Source: Ignavibacteria bacterium (GTDB lineage: Bacteria; Bacteroidota; Ignavibacteria; Kapaibacteriales; Kapaibacteriaceae). From it: a stretch of DNA of 57,132 bases. Below are positions 33,390-54,204 of this stretch, piece after piece; position 1 is the first letter of the stretch, and each line of letters begins with the position of its first letter. A model generated the notes under the pieces. That model searched no databases and was not told where the DNA came from. It was given only the letters and a program-made list of their open reading frames with translations. A program made the translations under genes and the position numbers. Where the stretch lies: assembly GCA_016191145.1 (NCBI GenBank), contig JACPPD010000007.1:155158-212289 (forward strand), written 5' to 3'.

Positions 33390-34605
33390 GTGACAACGGC
33401 GCTGCAACATCTTTCTCAGAGTGCTCTCATCGAGCTTGTGCTTGTGCAGCAACAAGAACTCATCGTAAAGGACGATAGCATTCGTGTAAAGGACGACAGC
33501 ATTCGTGTAAAGGACGACAGCATTCGTCACTATGAAGCACGGGTGTTTGATCTTGAATTTCAGATCAAAGAACTTCAGCGTCTGCTCTTCGGAGCAAAGC
33601 GCGAGCGTTTTGTTTCGCAGATGCCTGCAAGCCAACTCATGCTGAACTTTGAAGCTAATGAGGCCGAAGTTGCCTCAGCCGTGGATGCCGAGCTTGAGAA
33701 AATCAGCTACGAGCGCAAGAAGCCACAGCTCCTGGCAGCGCCTGACGGCAGAACACCTGCGTCCGCTGCATGCTGCGCTGCATGTGCAGGTGATGCAGGC
33801 ATCCTATCTGCAGGTTGATGAAACAGGTCTGGCCGTGCAGGACAGAACAAAACAGGGAACAACGCACAAAGGGTTTCTGTGGGGATACCATGCACCCGTG
33901 CAGCGGATTGTCTACTTTGAGTATCAGAAAGGACGCGGGCAGACCCATTGCAGGGAGTTGTTCGACGCCTACAGCGGATACCTGCAGACCGACGACTATC
34001 AGGCCTATCATGCACACAAGGCGCGCGACGGCGTCATCGGCCTTGCCTGCTGGGCTCATGCACGCAGGAATTTCGAGAAAGCGTTGGACTACGACCATGA
34101 ACGAGCGTCGACGGTGATGAAGCTGATTCAACAACTCTATGCTGTCGAGCGTGAAGCGCGTGACGGCGGACTCTCCCATGATGCCCGCAAAGAACTGCGT
34201 CTGCAGAAGTCTTTGCCGTTACTGAACACCATCAGCGCCTTGTTGATCCATCAACTGCCGGACACGCTTCCAAAGAGTCCGATGGGCAAAGCTCTGCGCT
34301 ATGCCATTCGCCTGTGGGATGACCTCATGGCCTATCTCTGCGACGGCAGACTCGAAATTGATAATAACCTTATGGAGAATGCCATTCGTCCGATCGCTCT
34401 GGGCAGAAAAAATTATCTCTTTGCCGGATCACACGACGCGGCGCAGAACATCGCGATGTACCGCTCGCTCTATGCCACGTGTTCTCTTAATCAGGTCAAT
34501 CCATACCAGTGGACTCGATACGTACTTACGCATATTAATTCCACTGCCCCCGTTAATTATCACACGCTGCTACCTCATCGCATCGATAAATCTCTGCTCA
34601 GCTAA
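33390..34605 (+). pseudogene. tnpC: IS66 transposase TnpC, internally deleted and frameshifted
   Basis: The N-terminal coiled-coil part (GTG at 33390, ending near ERKKPQL at about 33735) is joined in a different frame to the C-terminal catalytic part. The Cys-rich middle of the ~510-residue protein (roughly 150-180 residues) is missing at the junction near 33735-33760. The C-terminal part still holds the DDE residues: YLQVDETGL, YLQTDDYQAYHAH and DNNLMENAIRPIALGRKNYLF. The second frame stays open to 34605. The deletion plus frame change makes this inactive. Confidence 0.9.
33465..33527 (+). repeat. Three tandem 21-bp repeats inside the tnpC coiled coil
   Basis: Three in-frame copies (33465-33485, 33486-33506, 33507-33527) encode KDDSIRV three times. 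Copies two and three are identical; copy one differs by one base. They extend the predicted coiled coil of TnpC by whole heptads, as expected from slippage. Confidence 0.9.
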
Positions 34606-37073: not shown

Positions 37074-38204
37074 ATGAAGTCACCCTCAATTCTCCGTATT
37101 CTCTACACCGTTCAGGCTGCTACGTTTAGCATTTTGCTTTCAGGCTGTACCGGAGACTCTCCGGCTACGCCTGCGCCGCTTAAAGTACCAGAGAGTTACG
37201 ATGCCAGTACATATTCTGCATCCACGTCTGACATCTATCAATTGCGCGACGATTATGAGGCATTGATTTTAAAGATCAAGAGCGGACGCGACAAAAGTAC
37301 TATAATCACATACGAGGAGCTGGCTAATCTTTACGCCCCCTTACAACCATTCACGATGCCAGAATTTGATCCTATGGTCGAAAGCCTGCTTCAGTCTGCC
37401 GTCTCTTCGAGTGGCAAGGATTTCGATCCTATGAGTAATCCACAAAATTCTTCTAACGGCGGCGTATATGGTGGATACTTTTTTGATAAGTACGGCAGGT
37501 GTATCGACGAAAATTTTGAGAAAGGAATGTATGCCGCATTGTTATACAACCAAGCGAATATATTGATCAGTGATGGAGTGTCCGTTACAGATATTGACAA
37601 ACTAATCGCCCTGTTCGGAGCAAGCCCCTTGTTCCCTAATACCGGAAATGCCGCAGAGAACGCCGATGTATTCAGTGCCGAGTATGCAGCACAGAGAGAT
37701 AAGAACGATGGTAAGGGATTTTACTCTCAAATCAAGAAGGCGTTTATTACTGCACAAGCCGCAGCCAAGGCTGGTGATAATTATCGCGACGACCTCAATG
37801 CCTCAATTGCAACAGTTAAATCTGTTTGGGAACGGGCTTTGATGGCGACAGCAATTAGTTATTTGTATTCAACGGTCTCGCAGCTAAGTGCCACGAATCT
37901 CGACGCACCAGCTCGAGCATCGGCAATCCATTCATTTGGGGAGGCAAGTGGTATCGTGTTTGGCTGGCGATTCTTAAACAGCAAACAGCGTATTGCTACC
38001 GATTACCAATTAGCTGAAATATTGTCGCTTATTAAAATGCCCGCTGATCAGGAACCAACAATACACTTGCTTTGGCAACAATCGTTCGCGGAATTACCAA
38101 AACTTGAAACAGCCATTGGAAGGCTTCAGGCTATCTATGGGTTCTCTGCCTCCGACCTTGAAGATTTCAAAACAAATTGGGTCAATGCTCAGGGTAGGAA
38201 TTAA
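37074..38204 (+). CDS. DUF4856 domain lipoprotein of an iron-uptake operon
   Basis: Lipoprotein of 376 residues: the signal peptide ends SILLSGC (Cys at about residue 25). The mature part contains VPESYDASTYSASTSDIYQLRDDYEALILKIKSGRDKSTI, and GGYFFDKYGRCIDENFEKGMYAALLYNQANILI, typical of the DUF4856 family in Bacteroidota. The family regularly sits beside imelysin-like proteins, HTTM proteins and a TonB receptor, as it does here. Helical regions with conserved acidic residues suggest a metal-binding role similar to imelysins; no direct proof. It is the first gene after the tandem operators. Confidence 0.8.
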   Translation: MKSPSILRILYTVQAATFSILLSGCTGDSPATPAPLKVPESYDASTYSASTSDIYQLRDDYEALILKIKSGRDKSTIITYEELANLYAPLQPFTMPEFDPMVESLLQSAVSSSGKDFDPMSNPQNSSNGGVYGGYFFDKYGRCIDENFEKGMYAALLYNQANILISDGVSVTDIDKLIALFGASPLFPNTGNAAENADVFSAEYAAQRDKNDGKGFYSQIKKAFITAQAAAKAGDNYRDDLNASIATVKSVWERALMATAISYLYSTVSQLSATNLDAPARASAIHSFGEASGIVFGWRFLNSKQRIATDYQLAEILSLIKMPADQEPTIHLLWQQSFAELPKLETAIGRLQAIYGFSASDLEDFKTNWVNAQGRN

Positions 38205-38238
38205 TACAACACGCCAGCAATAACCATCAGGGAGATTT

Positions 38239-39333
38239 GTGCTGAAGACAATCAGTCTAACCGGTGCCTTTATTGCGTTGCTGACCTTAATAGGCTGTCA
38301 ATCAGATAAACAGACTCCAAGTGATGCATTCGATAGGAAAGCAATGTTAACCGACGTTGCCGACGCATTGATTATACCCGCGTATGCATCGGTAGATAGC
38401 GCTAATGTGGGTCTAAGAAACGCAGTGGACCAGTTTACCGCACAGCCATCGGAGCCGTTACTATCGGAATGTAGGAACGCATGGAAAGTGTGCGTTTTCC
38501 TTTGGCAGCGTGCCAGCCCTTATAACTTTGGACCAGCCGAAGGACTGTATGGAAATCTGAGGGAAAACATAGCAACATTTCCAGCCAATGCAGATTCAAT
38601 TGAAAAATACATCGCTGCAGCCGACACATCGCTTCAGAATTTCAATCGAGATAGCCGGGGATATTATGGCCTCGATTATCTGTTGTTTTCAGGTGATATT
38701 ACATCGGTAACTCAGAGATTTCAGGATGATGTAAATCGAAGAGCATACTTGAGAGCAATTGTGCGCGACGTTGAACAGAGGGTTTCGACGGTATACTCTA
38801 CATGGGCATCTGCATACCGAAATGAATTCATTTCCCGTAACGGAACAGATGCAGGCAGCAGCACGAGCCTTCTATTCAATCACATGAATATGAGCTATGA
38901 GCTGGCAAAGAATTACAAGGTATCGCTACCTCTGGGCAGACTTGCAGGTCAGACGCAAATCGAACCAGGAAAAGTTGAGGCATACTACTCAGGGTATTCT
39001 ATTGCATTACTAAGGGAGCATTACGCAACCATCATGCGAATATGGAGGGGCGAAACGGCAGAGGGTGCTAATATTGTTGGATTCAAAGAATATTTAGAAT
39101 CTGTTCCCGGCGGTGACAGACTTATCGTTGATACGGAAATGCAATCAGACTCAGTCTCGATAGCGCTCCAATCTCTATCCGAAGACGAAAGCCTATCAGC
39201 CATCATCATCAACCAACCCGATAGGCTTGAACCGTTGTATGCCGGAGTGCAAAAGTTTACACGGTTTATCAAGAGTGAGTTATCATCTCTGATAGGCATT
39301 GCAATCACGTATAGCAGCGGCGATGGCGATTGA
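38239..39333 (+). CDS. Imelysin-like (IrpA/ICMP family) lipoprotein
   Basis: Helical envelope protein of 364 residues linked to iron uptake. A GTG start at 38239 has GGGAG 6 bases upstream; the lipoprotein signal ends LLTLIGCQSD. Imelysin features are CRNAWKVCVFLWQRASPYNFGPAEGLYGN and RGYYGLDYLLFSGD. The latter sits where IrpA carries GxHxxE (GYHAIEFLL); here it is GYYGLDYLL, so the conserved His and Glu are Tyr and Asp. The second imelysin half (YELAKNYKVSLPLG..., GKVEAYYSGYSIALLREHY) is present. It lies 34 bp after the DUF4856 gene and overlaps the HTTM gene by 11 bp, and is surely co-expressed. Confidence 0.85.
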   Translation: MLKTISLTGAFIALLTLIGCQSDKQTPSDAFDRKAMLTDVADALIIPAYASVDSANVGLRNAVDQFTAQPSEPLLSECRNAWKVCVFLWQRASPYNFGPAEGLYGNLRENIATFPANADSIEKYIAAADTSLQNFNRDSRGYYGLDYLLFSGDITSVTQRFQDDVNRRAYLRAIVRDVEQRVSTVYSTWASAYRNEFISRNGTDAGSSTSLLFNHMNMSYELAKNYKVSLPLGRLAGQTQIEPGKVEAYYSGYSIALLREHYATIMRIWRGETAEGANIVGFKEYLESVPGGDRLIVDTEMQSDSVSIALQSLSEDESLSAIIINQPDRLEPLYAGVQKFTRFIKSELSSLIGIAITYSSGDGD

Positions 39334-40639
39334 TATTACAGAGAGATTCTCGCAGTACCTGGGAAAGCAACTGCCGTCGAAACACGTTGGGATTCTGCGA
39401 GCTCTCTTTGGTGCAATGATGGTCTTCAGTTGCACACGTTTCATCACATTGGGATGGATACAGGAGCAATACGTTAAACCCATAATGCACTTCCCATATC
39501 TGGGTTTTGAATGGGTTACGTCCTTGGGCTCACCTGGAATGGAGATTCTGTTTGCACTCATGCTGTGTTCAGCCGTGGGAGTGATGTTTGGTGCGTGGTA
39601 TCGAGTGAGCATCATCATTTTGTTTCTAACTTTTACATATATAGAACTGATAGATAAAACCTACTACTTAAATCATTACTACTTTGTAAGCATTACAGCG
39701 TTTCTATTCTGTCTTCTGCCGGCACACGCCGGGTTTTCCGTGGATGCATTGCGGCACAAATCGCAGCATCGGCCAACACTACCCCTATGGATGCTCGACG
39801 TTTTTAAGCTGCAGATCGCAATTGTATACCTTCATGCAGGGTTTGCCAAAATCAATTCATCGTGGCTCATAGATGCCATGCCTCTTCGGCTGTGGATGCC
39901 TGCTAACGATACGCTTCCGTTAGTAGGCGGGCTGATGGTGATTCCGTGGATGCCTTGGGTGTTCTCATGGGCTGGGATGTTGTTTGATACAACAGTCCCG
40001 GTATTCCTATTGAACCGACTAACTCGTCCGTATGCATACATCGCTGTGATATTCTTTCATACGGTTACAGGCATGATGTTTCAAATTGGAGTCTTTCCGC
40101 TTGTAATGATTGCCATGACAACGTCATTTTTTCTTGCTGACAAGAAATACGTTGTTCAACGAGAATCCGAAACTGCTCAACAACGTCGTTCATCAAAAGT
40201 GTTATTAAGCGTACTAGCCGTTCACTTTTTCATTCAGATTGCTGTTCCTTGGAGGTACGTTTTCTATCCGGGTAATTTATTCTGGACTGAGGAGGGCTAT
40301 CGGTTTGGATGGCGTGTTATGCTGGTTGAGAAGGCGGGGACGGCGCTCTTTACCGTTGAAGATAGGGCGACGCATCGGAAGGGTGTTGTTGCTAATTGTG
40401 ATTTCCTAAATGAGCATCAGGAAAAACAAATGGCGATTCAGCCCGACATGATTGTTCAGTACGCTCATTACCTGCACGATATTTATGCACAACGCGGGAT
40501 CACCGACCCAATAGTACGCGCAGAGGCTTGGGTAACAATGAATGGAAGAGCAAGCCGGCTACTTGTTGATCCGCACCGGGATCTGGGAAGGGTAAATCTA
40601 GGAATTGGACGCTCTGACTGGATTATTTCGTATGAATAA
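39323..40639 (+). CDS. HTTM domain membrane protein (vitamin K-dependent gamma-carboxylase-like)
   Basis: Integral membrane protein of 438 residues. The HTTM horizontally-transferred transmembrane region shows GILRALFGAMMVFSCTRF, DKTYYLNHYYFVSITAFLFCLLPAHAGFSVD, and LQIAIVYLHAGFAKINSSWLIDAMPLRLWMP. The C-terminal part is soluble (from about residue 290). The family resembles gamma-glutamyl carboxylases, but bacterial members lack proven substrates. I chose the ATG at 39323; the frame can start at TTG 39299. It sits between imelysin and FecA-like genes, overlapping both, in an operon structure common in Bacteroidota. Confidence 0.85.
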   Translation: MAIDITERFSQYLGKQLPSKHVGILRALFGAMMVFSCTRFITLGWIQEQYVKPIMHFPYLGFEWVTSLGSPGMEILFALMLCSAVGVMFGAWYRVSIIILFLTFTYIELIDKTYYLNHYYFVSITAFLFCLLPAHAGFSVDALRHKSQHRPTLPLWMLDVFKLQIAIVYLHAGFAKINSSWLIDAMPLRLWMPANDTLPLVGGLMVIPWMPWVFSWAGMLFDTTVPVFLLNRLTRPYAYIAVIFFHTVTGMMFQIGVFPLVMIAMTTSFFLADKKYVVQRESETAQQRRSSKVLLSVLAVHFFIQIAVPWRYVFYPGNLFWTEEGYRFGWRVMLVEKAGTALFTVEDRATHRKGVVANCDFLNEHQEKQMAIQPDMIVQYAHYLHDIYAQRGITDPIVRAEAWVTMNGRASRLLVDPHRDLGRVNLGIGRSDWIISYE

Positions 40640-42854
40640 CCGCGTCCGTTTTCTTTTTGCAATTATTCTCTGTACCGTCAAAGTTAACGCCTTCTATGTA
40701 GAAGATAAAAATAGTTATGAAGCTGTTTCCGACACGGTGAATTATCCAGGTGTCGAAGTTGTCGACTCCCTAAATTCTGGCTCGGGATTACGACGTCTGG
40801 ATGATGTCCAAACAGGCTCCATCTACGCTGCTAAGAAGACCGAACTGATCAGAATTCGCGATCTGACCATCAACACATCCACAAACAATGCTCGGCAAGC
40901 ATTTGCATCTGTTGCAGGATTGAATATATGGGAGAGTGATGGTGCAGGACTACAGCTCAGTATCGGAGGCCGAGGACTATCTCCCAACAGAACATCGAAC
41001 TTCAATACGCGCCAGAATGGTTATGATATTTCCGCCGATCCACTCGGTTATCCAGAAGCGTACTACACGCCCCCTCTCGACATAGTTGAGCGCATCGAAC
41101 TCGTGAGAGGAGCTGGGTCGTTACGTTATGGAACGCAGTTTGGAGGCACATTGAATTTTGTTCTGAGGAAGGGCGACAATACCACGCCTATTGCGGTGCG
41201 GTCGCGTTTGGGAGGGGGCTCGTACGGATTTGCCACCGGATTCGCCGAGCTGGGAGGGACAGCATATCAAACGAATTATATAGCTTCTTATCAGTTTAAG
41301 AGAGCAGACGGATGGCGGCCCAACTCGCAATTCGAAATGCATACAGCAAATGCCTCCGCAACTTATACGATTACTCCTTTGTGGTGGGTAAAGGCAGACT
41401 ACACGTACATGTCGTATCTCGCCCAGCAGCCCGGTGGTCTTACTGATAACCAATTTTATAAAGATCCAACAGTTAGTGTTCGGGCAAGAAATTGGTTTAA
41501 TGTTATTTGGAATGTTGCTTCGATCCAACTCGATGGTATTCTAAGCGACAGGACTGCAATCCGATCGTTAACGTTCGGGAATTTGAGTCAACGTCAGTCA
41601 GTTGGTGATTTATCGCGGATCAACCAAGCCGATTTAGGCGGCGCCCGAACACTCATCGATGGGCAGTTCTATTATTTTGGGAATGAAACAACTATCACTA
41701 CAGACTTCGATTTTCTGAGCGATACATCTGTTCTCGTAACGGGAGTGCGATATTTCCGTGGAGAGACCAGGCAGCGTCAGGGCGATGGATCGGCTGGTTC
41801 CGACGCCAACTTTAAATTCACTAATCCCAATAATTTGGAAGGTTCGGACTACACATTTCCTAACGACGATGCGGCGCTATTTGCCGAAGCTGTTATTCCA
41901 ATTGCCAACGATTGGCGTTTAGTACCTGGCATTCGAGCAGAATACATAACAACCCGCGCCGATGGGTGGTACAGAAGACGCATCAAAGATCTTGCCGGCA
42001 ACATTGTTCTCGATAGTGTTATTGATGAACAGCGTTCACGTTCACGAGTGGTAGCTCTTGCAGGTATTGGCATTTCGTGGAAGCCAAATGAGGGGCTGGA
42101 GCTATATGGCAATGCCACTCAGAATTACCGTTCGATAACCTTCTCGGATTTACGAGTAACAAATCCAAATCTTGTCATCGATCCAAATATTAGTGATGAA
42201 AGGGGCTATACATTAGATCTTGGGACGAGAGGTACGCTTTTCGGATCGGTGTCTTTTGATGCGAGTATTTTTTATCTGCGTTATAGCGATAGAATCGGAG
42301 AAGTACTGCGTGTTGGCGGGCCCCCTTACTACCTGCCTTACACATACAGAACAAACATTGGCGATGCCTATACATCTGGTATTGAAGCGGTTGTGGATTT
42401 GAATATTTCCCAGGTTTTCGAACTTTCGGAATCGCTGCCAACAATTCATTGGCTAATTAATGGATCTGCCATGCGTAGCCAATACCTGGAGTCGGAAGCT
42501 GCTTCGGTGGAAGGTAACGCCGTTGAATTTGTTCCTGCCTATATCATTCGTACGTCTCTATCTGCACAGTGGAGTCGGGTGCGATGCTCAATTTCAACAT
42601 CGTGGGTTGGAGAACACTATACCGATGCTTCGAACGCAGTGTACACTGCGTCGGCAGTGACCGGTAGCATACCTGCTTACAGCGTTACCGATTTATCCAT
42701 TTCATATTCGGCATCGTGGTTTTCAATCGAAGGCAGCCTTAACAACATATTAAATGCTTACTATTTCACCCGTCGGGCTTCATCTTATCCGGGACCAGGT
42801 ATCATCCCCGCCGAGCCGAGGACAATTACCGTCATCGCTCAATTCCAATTCTAG
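40632..42854 (+). CDS. TonB-dependent receptor, FecA-like iron-chelate transporter
   Basis: Outer-membrane receptor of 740 residues. The start at 40632 overlaps the HTTM gene by 8 bp and begins a signal peptide (MNNRVRFLFAIILCTVKVNAF). The plug holds ASVAGLNIWESDGAGLQLSIGGRGLSPNRTSNFNTRQNGYDISADPLGYPEAYYTPPLDIVERIELVRGAGSLRYG, closely patterned on FecA (ferric dicitrate). The barrel ends with AQFQF, a terminal aromatic typical for BamA recognition. No carboxypeptidase-like domain precedes the plug. It should import iron chelates with TonB energy, fed by the imelysin and DUF4856 lipoproteins. Confidence 0.9.
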   Translation: MNNRVRFLFAIILCTVKVNAFYVEDKNSYEAVSDTVNYPGVEVVDSLNSGSGLRRLDDVQTGSIYAAKKTELIRIRDLTINTSTNNARQAFASVAGLNIWESDGAGLQLSIGGRGLSPNRTSNFNTRQNGYDISADPLGYPEAYYTPPLDIVERIELVRGAGSLRYGTQFGGTLNFVLRKGDNTTPIAVRSRLGGGSYGFATGFAELGGTAYQTNYIASYQFKRADGWRPNSQFEMHTANASATYTITPLWWVKADYTYMSYLAQQPGGLTDNQFYKDPTVSVRARNWFNVIWNVASIQLDGILSDRTAIRSLTFGNLSQRQSVGDLSRINQADLGGARTLIDGQFYYFGNETTITTDFDFLSDTSVLVTGVRYFRGETRQRQGDGSAGSDANFKFTNPNNLEGSDYTFPNDDAALFAEAVIPIANDWRLVPGIRAEYITTRADGWYRRRIKDLAGNIVLDSVIDEQRSRSRVVALAGIGISWKPNEGLELYGNATQNYRSITFSDLRVTNPNLVIDPNISDERGYTLDLGTRGTLFGSVSFDASIFYLRYSDRIGEVLRVGGPPYYLPYTYRTNIGDAYTSGIEAVVDLNISQVFELSESLPTIHWLINGSAMRSQYLESEAASVEGNAVEFVPAYIIRTSLSAQWSRVRCSISTSWVGEHYTDASNAVYTASAVTGSIPAYSVTDLSISYSASWFSIEGSLNNILNAYYFTRRASSYPGPGIIPAEPRTITVIAQFQF

Positions 42855-42856
42855 AC

Positions 42857-42972
42857 GATGCCGGGAGGGATATGCTGCCGGGGAAGATGCCGGGAGGCAT
42901 ATGCTGCCGGGTAAGATGCCGGGAGAGATATGCTGCCGGGTAAGATGCCGGGAGGGATATGCTGCCGGGGAA
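42857..42972 (+). repeat. Four tandem 29-bp repeats after the receptor gene
   Basis: Units at 42857-42885, 42886-42914, 42915-42943 and 42944-42972, near identical and direct. Each unit holds TGCCGGG twice, at a half-unit distance (GATGCCGGGAG and ATGCTGCCGGG). The array starts two bases after the FecA-like stop codon. There are no spacers, so it is not CRISPR. It could form stacked RNA structures at the mRNA end or be a slippage product. Confidence 0.95.
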
Positions 42973-43126: not shown

Positions 43127-45034
43127 ATGAATAGATTGCTATTCGTTGTTCTCTTGTTGGTGACAACTGCAATAACGAGATTACATGCAACCGACTTTGT
43201 AGCAAAGCAACTAAAGGTTCTGCCGATATCTGTTGGTGTCTACCAGCTTATTCTGGTTGTTCGCAACGACAATGTGCTGGCAGATGCATTTGCTGTCAGG
43301 TGGGAGATTTATTTAGGTACCAATGCAACCGGTCCTAAGGTGTTCGATTATACACAAGATGAGCCCACGCTTCAGCCGTATACCGATCGTGACGTAACGT
43401 CGGCAGAAAACTTCACAGCAACGACTGCGGGCTCTCACTACGTTCGCGGCACGGTTGTTTATGGCAGTGAAATCGATCCATCCGACAATATAACGTCACT
43501 GATTTTCGAGGCCATTGTTCCCGGCTGCGAGGCTGGTGAGACGTGGCGTGCAGGTCCTGCGATGACGATTGTATCTTCGTTTAAAATCTGGCCAGACACG
43601 CCAATGGTTGGTGATAAGTTACGTCCGGCCGACGTAATCGGAATTTCAGCCTTAGTTACGGATGCCGACTTGCTTGAACAATCTTGTGGCTGTTTGGATG
43701 AAGACACGTCGGTTGTTCGCGGGCCATATCCCGACGAAGTTTCCTACGAATGGACTCTCGAAGGTCCTGGCACCCTGATTCAGCCTCCCTCGGGTAGCAA
43801 GAACACCGTCATGTACCAATTGCCTGTTTGTCCTCCTTCGGAATTCTTTTCAGCAACAGTTCGGCTGCGGGTGACGAATGCAGGGGGCAAGGCACGCGAT
43901 GAAGAAGTGTCGGGTTCGGTTTCCTTTAGCGTGTCGACTGCACGTATTTACTCTGCGGATTTTACGCCAACGTGGGATGCATATACGTACGATGTTTCGC
44001 CCTCCTACAACCATCTTGTGCCAAAATCTGACGGTGTAGTGGAAACAGCATCAGGAAATGCATGCACACCTCTTGAACCAATTTGGGAGAAAGGGCCCGC
44101 CATATCTGTTAATGGTGGAATCAGAAAATCATCGGCGCCGTTACTGTGTCCTGAGTATCTCACTCTTCTATCTGTTAGTGCAAGCGATATTGACAAATAC
44201 AAACTTGTATGCGGATCCACGCCAACAACTTGTTCACCGAGCGATACTCTTTCTAACACAAGCAATGATGGCCTTACATATTCCTGGTCTATTATAGGAG
44301 GCGCTGGCGAATTACCGATTCCTTCAACTGGTTCATCCATTGTTGTACGCCGCTCAGCATCTAAACCAACCATTGTTCAGTGCATCATCAATGATGGGGG
44401 GTTACAGGCAAACGACGATCCTGTAACTGTTATCGATACCCTGCCCCCGGTTGGGAAGCCAAAGGCTTTTGTCGGGCTGGGAGATGACGAAGGTACAAGC
44501 GTTTCAAAACTTGCAGGCAGTGTTTGGGATACCTGGAAGGAGATATTGGGAGGGACATCTTCTGGTGAGGAGTTGTATGGAGGCAGATCCGGCGCTTTGA
44601 AAAGTGCATACGAGTCGTTGGTATCAAAACTTACAAATGCAGGGTATGATGTAATTGGAGATGATTCTCTCGTTGTAACTGAGTTTCAAGCGATAGTAGA
44701 AAACCCGTGTATTAAGACATTTGCCTTTGTTGGTCATGGAGCATCGGGGAAAATAAATATGGCTCGAATGTTTATCGCCGGATCGTGGAATACTCCACAG
44801 CGAGGTGGTGAGCATGTAAAGGGTATTTCACAAACAGCCTTCAACTGCGACAGACATCCCTTTTGGCGCGATCTTGTTCTGCTAGCCTGCGAAACAATGC
44901 AAGGTTCGTGGGGGAGCGTACAGGTGTATGGAAGAAGTCATGGTTACACTACAACGAAGAGCTTTGCCAAGCTCAGATGGTGGGCGTATTGGTCGTACGA
45001 CCCACTTCCGCCAATTATTCTCACTGTAGACTAG
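43127..45034 (+). CDS. Secreted Ig-like protein with C-terminal caspase-like (clan CD) domain, putative
   Basis: 635 residues with signal peptide (residues 1-20, MNRLLFVVLLLVTTAITRLH). The N-terminal part is CARDB/Ig-like (about 25-130); two PKD/Ig-like domains follow (YEWTLEGPGTLIQPPSGSK; YSWSIIGGAGELPIPSTG). The C-terminal ~170 residues hold LVSKLTNAGYDVIG, TFAFVGHGASGKIN (His537) and DLVLLACETMQGSWG (Cys588). A GHG after a beta-strand, then ACE/T after the next strand about 50 residues on, is the His/Cys dyad layout of clan CD peptidases (caspase, CHAT, gingipain). No known family is matched end to end. There is no clear T9SS tail. It lies 9 bp before the YCF48/T9SS gene. Confidence 0.7.
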   Translation: MNRLLFVVLLLVTTAITRLHATDFVAKQLKVLPISVGVYQLILVVRNDNVLADAFAVRWEIYLGTNATGPKVFDYTQDEPTLQPYTDRDVTSAENFTATTAGSHYVRGTVVYGSEIDPSDNITSLIFEAIVPGCEAGETWRAGPAMTIVSSFKIWPDTPMVGDKLRPADVIGISALVTDADLLEQSCGCLDEDTSVVRGPYPDEVSYEWTLEGPGTLIQPPSGSKNTVMYQLPVCPPSEFFSATVRLRVTNAGGKARDEEVSGSVSFSVSTARIYSADFTPTWDAYTYDVSPSYNHLVPKSDGVVETASGNACTPLEPIWEKGPAISVNGGIRKSSAPLLCPEYLTLLSVSASDIDKYKLVCGSTPTTCSPSDTLSNTSNDGLTYSWSIIGGAGELPIPSTGSSIVVRRSASKPTIVQCIINDGGLQANDDPVTVIDTLPPVGKPKAFVGLGDDEGTSVSKLAGSVWDTWKEILGGTSSGEELYGGRSGALKSAYESLVSKLTNAGYDVIGDDSLVVTEFQAIVENPCIKTFAFVGHGASGKINMARMFIAGSWNTPQRGGEHVKGISQTAFNCDRHPFWRDLVLLACETMQGSWGSVQVYGRSHGYTTTKSFAKLRWWAYWSYDPLPPIILTVD

Positions 45035-45043
45035 GGTGGTAAC

Positions 45044-47107
45044 ATGAAAACACTAATTGTAACGATTGCAAATATCCTAGCCGTAGCAAGCGCATTGTCG
45101 CAACAATACGTCAGCAGGATAGACAATTACTCATTCGGAGGATATACAATCACCGATGTGGAATACAATGCCCCCTACCTGTTTATTTGTGGGGACCAGG
45201 CAACCATAATGTATTCGGAATTGACGAATCCAGATTTCAAGAAAGCCTTCACCGATGTTGGCGACTCCGTTCTCCTTAACGATATTGAATTTGGTCCAGC
45301 ATCAATGGGGCTGTGCGTTGGGTCTGACGGAACCATTTTGCGATCGTCCAACGGAGGTCAAACGTGGGCAGGTATTTCAACTGGAACGTTCGAACATTTC
45401 TATGGGGTCGCTATCAGCCCATCCGGCAACGATGCTATTTGCGTTGGCACTGGCGGTATTGCAATGAAATCTGGCGATGGAGGGGCGACTTGGCAGACAA
45501 CAAATACAGGAACTAAATTGACATTATATGATGTTACTATCCTGCCCGGTGGGGCATTCCTGGCCGTTGGTGAGGGCGGTTACATTGCCACGCTTGCTTC
45601 TGGATCTTCGACTTGGCAGGTGCGTTCAGGGTCTTCGAGCAGGACATTTTACTCTTGCCTTTTTACTAGTGCTCAGAACGGCTGGGTTGGAATTAACGGA
45701 GGTATCCTTCGTACCGAGGATGGTGGAGTTACGTGGACTCAACAGTTATCGGGCGTTTACGGGTCGATCATGAATATAGATCGAGATGCCAACACACTTG
45801 TTGCCGCGGGTTCTGCGTATGGAACAATAGGCGTTTCGCAGGATGGTTCCACCTGGCAGCAGGTTTATGTTGGCGACACAGTAGCTACAAAAGGAGTTTT
45901 ATATTCCTCCGTCATCAGTGCCGCTGTTGTTACCGGTGAGGATGGAATGGTGAGGGTCTTAGAACTTGGACCAGCATTGATTTCTGAGATTGGCGCATAC
46001 AATGCCCCTTTCTATTTCGACCACTTAAAACTTGGCGATGGAACATTGTGGTGTGTTGGCTCTAATGGAGCCGTGCATTCACGCTCGAGCGCGGGTGAAT
46101 GGATAAAGCATACTACAGGGAGTACGGCATTGCTGACGGGTATCGCTTCTAATATTGATGGCAGCATCTTGTGCGTCAGCGGTGCAGATGGCGTTGTACT
46201 GCGTTCATCAGATGGTGGTTCAACGTGGAATTCAATTTCTTTACCAAACCAAACTCCGCTTTCTTCCATTTCGTTCAATGGTTCGTTCTGGGCCGCTGGT
46301 AGAGAGAAGGTCTATGTGTCTTCCGATGGTTCTTCGTGGTCGCAGGCGGGATCGGTTACAGGTACAAGGTTGCTTGACGTTGAAGCAGTCAGCTCAAATG
46401 AAGCATACGTCTGCGGCACTGGTGGTATAATATCTAGGACTACAGACGGCGGCAGCACGTGGACGCTGCTTACAACTAATGTTACTTCAACCTTTATGGA
46501 TGGTGACATCGATGCATCTGGTATCGGACTATTTGTTGGGCAATTCGGCTTAGGCTTGCTTACCACCGACGGAGGCAGCACGTTCTTGCCTCTTACCATT
46601 CCCGAGAGTTCCATCATGATTACTGCAGTCGATGCCGACGCATCAACTGGTCGTGCTGCAATAACAACCATAAGTGGTAAAATTATTTACCGTGCCAGTC
46701 CCACTTCGCAATGGGCGGTATTCGACGGTGCAACCCAATTCTCTGACGTTGCTCTAACCGCCGATGAGATAACGGCTGTAGGTGAAGGGGGCACTGTAAT
46801 ACGCGTTCCACTATCGGCAGTATCTGTCGAAGAAGCGCCATTGCAGCACGCCCTCCTCATAACTCCCAATCCTGCAAACGAATCCATCGAAGTAATTCTA
46901 GATGAAGCAGAGAAGGCGCGAAATGACGGATACCAATTGGTTGTAACATCAATTGAAGGAAAGGTAGTAAAGAAAAATAGATTTGAGCCCGGGCGAAGCA
47001 GGTTAACTTTTGATGTGAGCCGATTGCCGATTGGAGTGTATTCAATCTCAGCATTTGATAAGGAAGGCATACCGATTGGCAGTGGACTAGTAACGCTGTC
47101 ACGATAA
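45044..47107 (+). CDS. YCF48/BNR-type propeller protein with T9SS sorting domain
   Basis: 687 residues with a signal peptide (MKTLIVTIANILAVASALSQ). The middle is a series of repeats of the kind SSDGGSTWNSIS and SNGGQTWAGIS, typical of YCF48 (photosystem II assembly-like) and BNR propellers; at least eight repeats are visible. The C-terminal ~85 residues (LITPNPANESIEVILD, YQLVVTSIEGKVV, LPIGVYSISAF) are a type A T9SS sorting domain. The protein should be exported and attached to the surface. The start lies 9 bp after the caspase-like gene, so they are co-transcribed and may be partners. Confidence 0.87.
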   Translation: MKTLIVTIANILAVASALSQQYVSRIDNYSFGGYTITDVEYNAPYLFICGDQATIMYSELTNPDFKKAFTDVGDSVLLNDIEFGPASMGLCVGSDGTILRSSNGGQTWAGISTGTFEHFYGVAISPSGNDAICVGTGGIAMKSGDGGATWQTTNTGTKLTLYDVTILPGGAFLAVGEGGYIATLASGSSTWQVRSGSSSRTFYSCLFTSAQNGWVGINGGILRTEDGGVTWTQQLSGVYGSIMNIDRDANTLVAAGSAYGTIGVSQDGSTWQQVYVGDTVATKGVLYSSVISAAVVTGEDGMVRVLELGPALISEIGAYNAPFYFDHLKLGDGTLWCVGSNGAVHSRSSAGEWIKHTTGSTALLTGIASNIDGSILCVSGADGVVLRSSDGGSTWNSISLPNQTPLSSISFNGSFWAAGREKVYVSSDGSSWSQAGSVTGTRLLDVEAVSSNEAYVCGTGGIISRTTDGGSTWTLLTTNVTSTFMDGDIDASGIGLFVGQFGLGLLTTDGGSTFLPLTIPESSIMITAVDADASTGRAAITTISGKIIYRASPTSQWAVFDGATQFSDVALTADEITAVGEGGTVIRVPLSAVSVEEAPLQHALLITPNPANESIEVILDEAEKARNDGYQLVVTSIEGKVVKKNRFEPGRSRLTFDVSRLPIGVYSISAFDKEGIPIGSGLVTLSR

Positions 47108-53529: not shown

Positions 53530-54171
53530 ATGGAACCCATTTTAGACTTCATTCTGCACATCGATCATTATCTCACGCTGATAACATCAGAGTATGGCAG
53601 TTGGACTTACGCTATTCTCTTCCTGATAATCTTTGCGGAGACAGGACTTGTGGCAGCCCCCTTCTTACCAGGGGATTCACTGCTCTTTGCTGCCGGAGCC
53701 ATCTGTGCCTTAGGTACGCTCGATATTGGCTTGCTGATTTTCCTGCTATCACTGGCGGCGGTACTGGGTGATGCCGTGAATTATTTCGTCGGCGCACGTC
53801 TCGGACCACGCGTCTTCAGTAGCTCATCCTCAAGGTGGCTCAACCGCAGGCATTTGGACCGCACGCATCAGTTCTACGAAAAACACGGTGGTAAAACCAT
53901 AATTCTTGCTCGCTTCATGCCTTTCATCCGCACATTCGCTCCATTCGTGGCTGGTATTGGAAAAATGACGTACCCGAAGTTTGCCATATACAATGTGGTA
54001 GGAGGCTTAGTGTGGGTGTCTGCCTTCAGCTTGATGGGATTTTATTTTGGGAATCAGCCCGCAGTCAAGGAGAATTTTACCTTAGTCATCGGAGCTATCA
54101 TTCTTATCAGCGTAATTCCCATTTTTGTCGAGATTATTCGTGCATGGCTTCAGCGACGTTCAATGGTTTGA
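53530..54171 (+). CDS. DedA family membrane protein
   Basis: 213-residue integral membrane protein of the DedA/SNARE-associated family. FAETGLVAAPFLPGDSLLFAAGAI near residue 37 and the later ILARFMPFIRTFAPFVAGIGKMTYPKF (with two conserved Arg) are hallmarks; TM segments surround both. DedA proteins are linked to membrane lipid (undecaprenyl phosphate/phosphatidylethanolamine) translocation and to pH and drug tolerance. It is 29 bp downstream of murQ. The start lacks a Shine-Dalgarno. Confidence 0.92.
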   Translation: MEPILDFILHIDHYLTLITSEYGSWTYAILFLIIFAETGLVAAPFLPGDSLLFAAGAICALGTLDIGLLIFLLSLAAVLGDAVNYFVGARLGPRVFSSSSSRWLNRRHLDRTHQFYEKHGGKTIILARFMPFIRTFAPFVAGIGKMTYPKFAIYNVVGGLVWVSAFSLMGFYFGNQPAVKENFTLVIGAIILISVIPIFVEIIRAWLQRRSMV

Positions 54172-54204
54172 TGAGCTGGTAATGGGTTTGATGAGCTGGT
54201 AATG
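54165..54204 (+). repeat. 20-bp tandem duplication across the dedA stop
   Basis: GGTTTGATGAGCTGGTAATG occurs twice head to tail (54165-54184, 54185-54204). The first copy includes the last codons and the TGA of dedA. It is a recent slippage-type duplication, 26 bp before tRNA-Leu. Confidence 0.95.

Follow-up and report, generated by a model that had tools for sequence, protein, structure and literature searches.

Two adjacent genes in an Ignavibacteria genome

The DNA analyzed here is a 57,132-nucleotide stretch (the window) from an Ignavibacteria bacterium (assembly GCA_016191145.1, contig JACPPD010000007.1, forward-strand positions 155,158 to 212,289). Within it lie two adjacent genes, which we call gene 1 and gene 2. 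Gene 1 encodes a 635-residue protein whose C-terminal domain carries a putative His–Cys dyad, and gene 2 encodes a propeller protein with a tail resembling those recognized by the type IX secretion system (T9SS). Both ORFs are present on the + strand, with a stop-to-start gap of 9 bp from gene 1 to gene 2; the coordinates, the 635-residue length, and the gap reported by a first-pass annotation of this DNA were all verified. The features of the pair are as follows.

43127..45034, + strand: gene 1, ORF of 635 residues with an ATG start; homologs in six further genomes
43127..45034, + strand: layout of gene 1, consisting of signal, N-terminal module (N-module), duplicated Cys-rich module, and clan-CD-like domain
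43127..43189, + strand: predicted Sec signal peptide, cut before Thr22 (between LHA and TDF), read by eye from the hydrophobic core
43190..43516, + strand: N-module, residues 22–130, weakly CARDB-like
43520..44026, + strand: Cys-rich module copy 1, residues 132–300, found by hhalign versus copy 2
44054..44455, + strand: Cys-rich module copy 2, residues 310–443, found by hhalign versus copy 1; invariant Cys313, Cys341, Cys362, and Cys419
44456..45031, + strand: clan-CD-like (caspase-like) domain, residues 444–635, from profiles A4 and A5 compared with C14 and DUF4347
44735..44737, + strand: codon CAT of His537 (GHG), the proposed catalytic His; invariant in 7/7 loci
44888..44890, + strand: codon TGC of Cys588 (LLACE), the proposed nucleophile; invariant in 7/7 loci
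45044..47107, + strand: gene 2, 687 residues, YCF48/BNR propeller; signal peptide by eye; T9SS type A-like tail
46865..47053, + strand: T9SS C-terminal sorting domain of gene 2, residues 608–670; PF18962, 31.2 bits (cut-off 27), E value 2.7e-7

The C-terminal domain of gene 1 is probably of the clan CD type

Clan CD is described as comprising seven families, with the caspase dyad carried on loops L3 and L4 (PMC4357240). The first-pass annotation had noted that GHG (His537) and ACE (Cys588) of gene 1 sit at the spacing of this clan, and both residues are indeed in place. His537, Gly538, and Cys588 are invariant in all six aligned sequences (the window's included) and in all seven loci where we found gene 1 (listed below); the distance from HG to Cys is 48 to 54 residues in these seven, within the range of 42 to 62 found for C14. 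The invariant positions of the domain comprise PKA, GY, PC, HG, C, W, and G. The C-terminal placement of the domain, previously drawn at residues 460 to 635, holds, and its start lies nearer residue 444 (KPKAF).

Using genomes of the same phylum, we aligned C14, C25, CHAT, C11, and DUF4347 sequences and compared the resulting profiles with that of the gene 1 domain by hhalign, with column shuffles as the background. The matches used were 25 of 33 for C14, 27 of 29 for CHAT, 24 of 47 for C25, and 18 of 20 for DUF4347; C11 was represented by seven proteins holding 10 matches. On the gene 1 side we used profile A4 and profile A5, the latter an alignment of five diverged gene 1 homologs. C14 scored 32.2 against A4, with none of 150 shuffles as high (highest 20.7), and 31.9 against A5 (0/100 as high), while DUF4347 scored 32.3 against A5 over 105 columns (0/100 as high, highest 22.6). 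HG fell on HG and C on C in the A4–C14 and A5–DUF4347 alignments, and the C14 and DUF4347 matches remained at least 29.6 after any single sequence was left out. Profiles of YCF48 and RpoB, included as unrelated controls, scored 16.1 and 13.7. CHAT, C25, and C11 did not stand clear of the shuffles: CHAT reached 18.7, matching over just 12 columns around the Cys, and was equaled by 2 of 100 shuffles, C25 reached 15.8 (21 of 100), and C11 reached 14.4 (25 of 100). As yardsticks, five-sequence C14 profiles scored 28 to 41 against C25, a range into which the gene 1 scores with C14 fall, and 34 to 55 against CHAT; C11 reached only 21.4 against C14, so this test misses some accepted relations. With C14 and DUF4347 scoring above every shuffle and with HG and Cys in register, the clan CD reading proposed in the first-pass annotation is supported; we conclude that the domain is probably of the clan CD type, with support that is weak to moderate.

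It could instead be that there is no caspase fold and that GHG and ACE occur by coincidence in an alpha/beta or Ig-like domain of other origin. The protein belongs to no Pfam or NCBIfam family, the domain sequence matched the PDB at noise level only, and AlphaFold, run on residues 440 to 635 from the single sequence without an alignment, returned a predicted local distance difference test score (pLDDT) of 33.8 and a predicted template modeling score of 0.28, values too low for the model to be read as any fold. Moreover, hhalign probabilities for the domain matches are only 41 to 48%, the A5–C14 alignment covers the HG half only, and DUF4347 scores only 19.2 against C14 and so is not linked to it by the profile test. 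These limits weigh against the clan CD assignment. Set against them are the in-register matches to C14 and DUF4347 and the far lower scores of unrelated profiles, and we consider a coincidence very unlikely.

The domain might also have kept a caspase fold and lost protease activity, serving as a binding or sensing module like the pseudo-orthocaspases, with HG and Cys in structural roles. Many bacterial p20 proteins are pseudo-enzymes, with 858 of 9,994 orthocaspases reported as such (PMC6426788), and the Asp that metacaspases carry two residues before the catalytic cysteine (Cys-2) is absent from gene 1. Such variants are recognized by loss of the dyad, however, whereas both dyad residues of gene 1 are invariant in 7/7 loci. 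An inactive module therefore strikes us as improbable.

Gene 1 falls outside the named families

The gene 1 protein had no family match in Pfam, NCBIfam, or PADLOC (none in Pfam at E ≤ 1), and judging from its sequence the most fitting label is that of a new clan-CD-like family, absent by name from these three libraries. Membership of the orthocaspase/metacaspase family (C14) was rejected, with no PF00656 match to the domain at E ≤ 10 and with Leu or Met at Cys-2. This position holds Asp in 25/25 C14 sequences compared versus Leu or Met in 7/7 gene 1 loci. We take the catalytic cysteine of TbMC2 to be residue 213, making Asp211 its Cys-2 position. The acidic pocket of orthocaspases, TbMC2 Asp211 included, has been tied to basic P1 residues (PMC6426788); the missing Asp therefore argues against a metacaspase-type Arg/Lys pocket in the gene 1 protein. 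Extracellular protein breakdown is among the ideas discussed for bacterial metacaspases (PMC4933709).

Family C25, which includes the gingipains and PorU, was rejected because there was no match to PF01364 or to NF033707, a model that does recover the genome's own PorU at 838.8 bits, the profile score lay within the shuffles, and the His–Cys spacing is 30 to 38 residues versus 48 to 54 here, in agreement with the earlier remark that the domain does not read as C25. CHAT was rejected on the lack of a PF12770 match and a profile score barely above noise, and DUF4347 on the lack of a PF14252 match and a His–Cys spacing of 37 to 43. DUF4347 was found in 12 of 148 genomes, none of the 12 being labeled as the same class or closer.

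Gene 1 combines a predicted export signal with modules shared by other exported proteins

A junction of Ala or Gly followed by TD(F/L) recurs at the predicted signal cleavage site in homologs with a readable start, those of genomes G164, G602, and G710 among them, and the gene 1 product would thus be exported via Sec. For the N-module, Pfam offered hints only, namely CARDB at E 0.097 (in locus L169) and WxLIP_HBD at E 8.6e-5, under its cut-off (in L168). The two Cys-rich copies are one duplicated module (hhalign P 6.5e-9 over 119 columns). The Ig-like domains named in the first-pass annotation are only loosely supported: no Pfam Ig model matched, and residues 132–300 and 310–443 are the two copies of this module. 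An odd cysteine count was considered as a sign of a free nucleophile and rejected, because there are 11 invariant cysteines plus a 12th that is also invariant if columns 452 and 453 are read as one. We infer a possible disulfide between Cys528 and Cys574, joining the bases of two neighboring strands.

The N-module was matched in 16 other loci and lay at the N terminus in 10 of them. Seven of these 10 proteins bear a C39-like (G)D.NAC.P cysteine motif downstream, and three lack it in the part examined; the motif was found in 0/6 loci whose match is not N-terminal. The combination is seen in L012, L014, L016, L017, L019, L020, and L025, several of them with a T9SS-type tail. L167, a longer form of L014, carries two copies of the motif and matches Peptidase_C39_2 at E 0.0017, under the cut-off; the others are assigned as C39-like by motif alone. 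The T9SS tail model PF18962 is over its cut-off in L167 and L168 and under it in L170, and L169 has no PF18962 match and only a sub-cut-off match to FlgD_ig. In a 1055-residue protein elsewhere (L040, 2010–5174), the same Cys-rich modules precede HELAH (HExxH) at residue 850, possibly making it a metallopeptidase on the same modular chassis. Since the N-terminal and Cys-rich modules are found with both C39-like and HExxH motifs, they appear to travel with different exported, peptidase-like domains.

The gene pair is conserved but patchily distributed

Gene 1 has six relatives, of which five are diverged (28–32% identical to the window protein) and one, L004, is a sister (94%). Searched with the single sequence, 395 genomes of the phylum yielded, beyond the window's own genome (G000), a full-length relative in G164 (31%). 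A match in G087 (E 9e-4) was dropped; it is confined to residues 352–479, and its locus consists of long repeat proteins with, by eye, gliding-type C termini. A single-protein scan of assembled-genome contigs returned only the sister record L004 (G689 is the same record), and profile searches added G669, G602, and G446. At the level of the class, 35 of 391 genomes match at E ≤ 0.01, five of the 35 over most of the protein. At the level of the order, 19 of 123 match at E ≤ 0.001, and the full architecture is present in six (G000, G689, G602, G164, G669, and G710). The gene 1 of G669 is cut short where its contig stops, and an N-terminal piece that matches lies at one end of a second contig; the gene 1 of G446 has no N-module. 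Four genomes with the same genus label lack the full gene: G059, G228, and G541 gave no match, and G377 gave a weak N-module match only. The pair is thus patchy, being found in 6 of the 123 genomes of the order and missing from these four. No match to gene 1 was found in viral contigs, searched with the domain alignment, or in plasmids and phages.

Weak domain-profile matches in 15 other Bacteroidota genomes of the 395 (besides G000 and G164; E 0.009–0.09) were judged to be chance, and in each of the six such loci that we aligned, the match covers only part of the domain. A 578-residue ORF in G324 (L046) has an IYVGHG stretch and scores 13.8 bits to the domain profile; it has GHG but no aligned Cys part. 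Between G710 (L166, family f2) and G602 (L038, family f4), gene 1 is 64% identical, versus only 31–33% between G710 and the two other f2 members; this closeness across family labels points to transfer or old paralogs. No RpoB was recovered from G710.

At 7/7 loci (the window, L004, L005, L036, L038, L039, and L166, which come from the window's own genome, the sister record, and genomes G164, G602, G446, G669, and G710), the gene directly downstream of gene 1, on the same strand, encodes a YCF48 propeller. The gene pair described in the first-pass annotation is therefore real and conserved, and by eye we noticed no other neighbor common to the seven loci, some of which are on short contigs. A tree was made from 16 of 22 YCF48 proteins (lengths of 600–900 only), nine of them non-partners from G000, G164, G669, and G710; after the length filter, G602 and G446 were represented by their partners alone. 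The partners of the six loci in the window's order group together as a single clade, apart from the nine other YCF48 proteins, with support of 97/97.

These patterns bear on a simpler explanation, in which gene 1 encodes a peptidase that acts on its own, secreted or in the periplasm, digesting proteins in nutrition or competition, with the propeller as an independent, co-expressed surface neighbor. Several N-module relatives, being C39-like with T9SS-type tails, resemble ordinary secreted degradative enzymes, and a full architecture in only 6 of 123 genomes is what accessory digestive genes would give. Against this stand the retention of YCF48 next downstream at all seven loci across ~30% protein identity and the single clade of six partners, and we regard a free-acting enzyme as a possible but doubtful explanation.

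Gene 2 as a candidate surface partner of gene 1

Gene 2 carries PSII_BNR/YCF48 repeats (PF14870, 90.1 bits; cut-off 27). Its PDB sequence matches are to Ycf48 at residues 79–274 and to HCF136 at residues 380–491, separate regions from which we infer two propellers. The sorting-domain model Por_Secre_tail, PF18962, exceeds 27 bits in four of the seven partners (window 31.2, L004 29.3, G602 52.2, and G710 41.7); the window protein also scores 20.3 bits against TIGR04183, slightly below the cut-off of 23.

In T9SS bacteria, PorU is described as a C25-type (clan CD) surface cysteine peptidase/sortase that acts on general T9SS cargo and is bound directly by PorZ (PMC8545088). PorZ has two propellers and a C-terminal domain (CTD) and is reported to be required for surface exposure of PorU (PMC5121618). 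By analogy, we propose that gene 1 would encode an exported cysteine peptidase, or a peptidase-fold transpeptidase, of an unnamed clan-CD-like family using a His537/Cys588 dyad, and that gene 2 would be its dedicated partner, a double propeller taken to the cell surface by the T9SS. The role of the propeller, modeled on that of PorZ for PorU, might be to place the peptidase on the surface and/or to present the peptidase's substrate. Both catalysis by gene 1 and physical binding of the two products would be part of this picture. We hold the reading as a whole, a gene 1 peptidase with a surface-propeller partner in gene 2, with moderate confidence.

Besides the results on the fold given above, several observations weigh against this proposal. 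On the partner side, the clade does not include the G446 partner, and a group of all seven partners appears in just 10% of bootstrap trees; the tree program warns of long branches in the partner clade, and in BLAST certain other YCF48 proteins come out level with some of the partners. Adjacency is no proof of binding. PF18962 is below 27 bits in three of seven partners (G164 20.7, G669 15.3, and G446 16.5), and the PorZ model NF052228 was not among the matches at E ≤ 1 for four of the seven partners in a library that includes it. Gene 1 itself has no PF18962 match in the three of seven proteins scanned (P0001, L002, and L166); lacking a T9SS tail, it may stay in the periplasm. Finally, a true PorU (NF033707, 838.8 bits) is encoded in the window's own genome, so no sortase is missing and the pair is not a replacement for PorU.

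This last result also touches another alternative, that gene 1 is a maturation enzyme, a second specialized sortase working in the envelope, whose substrate for cleavage or transpeptidation would be the gene 2 protein or further T9SS cargo. Gene 2 bears a CTD-type tail and is the only common neighbor noticed by eye, and PorU, a clan CD enzyme, does this for general cargo (PMC8545088). Given that PorU is already encoded in the same genome and that gene 1 is not C25, we see little likelihood of such a role.

If the proposal of a peptidase with a surface-propeller partner is right, clan CD would gain a family with an exported, multi-cysteine architecture that is unnamed in the libraries searched, and "clan CD enzyme plus CTD-bearing propeller" would be a recurring T9SS design, beyond PorU–PorZ. 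It makes testable the surface delivery of a protein without a T9SS signal by a signal-bearing partner, as well as the substrate of a caspase-like enzyme that lacks the aspartate of the basic S1 pocket.

Sequence surrounding the pair

Just upstream (37074–42854) are genes for a DUF4856-like protein (under the Pfam cut-off), an imelysin (PF09375), HTTM/vitamin-K-dependent carboxylase-like sequences (PF05090, PF22777), and a TonB receptor, a cluster with the appearance of an uptake operon. In the gap that separates the TonB receptor gene from gene 1, a 29-bp unit, GATGCCGGGAGGGATATGCTGCCGGGGAA, is repeated four times in tandem at 42857–42972 (93% matches); these four are its matches across the window, where none is expected by chance. 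Short tandem repeats also occur at 33465–33527 (21 bp, three copies) and 54165–54204 (20 bp, two copies). Promoter calls from consensus scanning were rejected (four found versus 6.8 expected).

Comparison with known systems

Gene 1 resembles C14 (PF00656) in the in-register HG and C and in their spacing, 42–62 in the 25 C14 sequences and 48–54 here; it differs in its predicted export, its Cys-rich modules, and its T9SS neighbor. With DUF4347 (PF14252), a family that often occurs in very large proteins, it shares the aligned HG and [G/A]C segments and a bulky residue at Cys-2 (Tyr or Trp there, Leu or Met here). The C25 gingipains have clan CD (probable for gene 1) and T9SS bacteria in common with the pair, and the window's own genome holds two C25 genes. 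The C39-like proteins (L167, L168, L169, and L170) are like gene 1 in the N-module, export (by eye), and a Cys-peptidase motif, but theirs is a papain-like C39 motif and not the clan-CD-like one of gene 1, and their tail is on the same chain, whereas in the window pair it is on the partner protein.

The closest precedent is PorU–PorZ. The first-pass annotation knew of no described system with this pair, a claim that has to be given up in that form, since PorU–PorZ, as portrayed in PMC5121618 and PMC8545088, is a documented pair of broadly this kind. Among the matches listed in the open-licence PMC literature, judged by titles and abstract openings, no title concerned this gene pair itself. PorU–PorZ is like the window pair in joining a clan-CD-type enzyme to a T9SS-tailed propeller, PorZ having 776 residues versus 687 for gene 2. 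It differs in that gene 1 is neither C25 nor PorU and has no CTD, and in that gene 2 has a YCF48-type propeller and gives no match to the model for PorZ. We therefore propose the pair as an accessory system that would be analogous, and not orthologous, to PorU–PorZ. More speculatively, and with low confidence, it could be a second, independently evolved PorU/PorZ-like machine, in which a new clan-CD enzyme without its own T9SS signal is hosted by a T9SS-exported double propeller and cuts or links specific cargo or prey.

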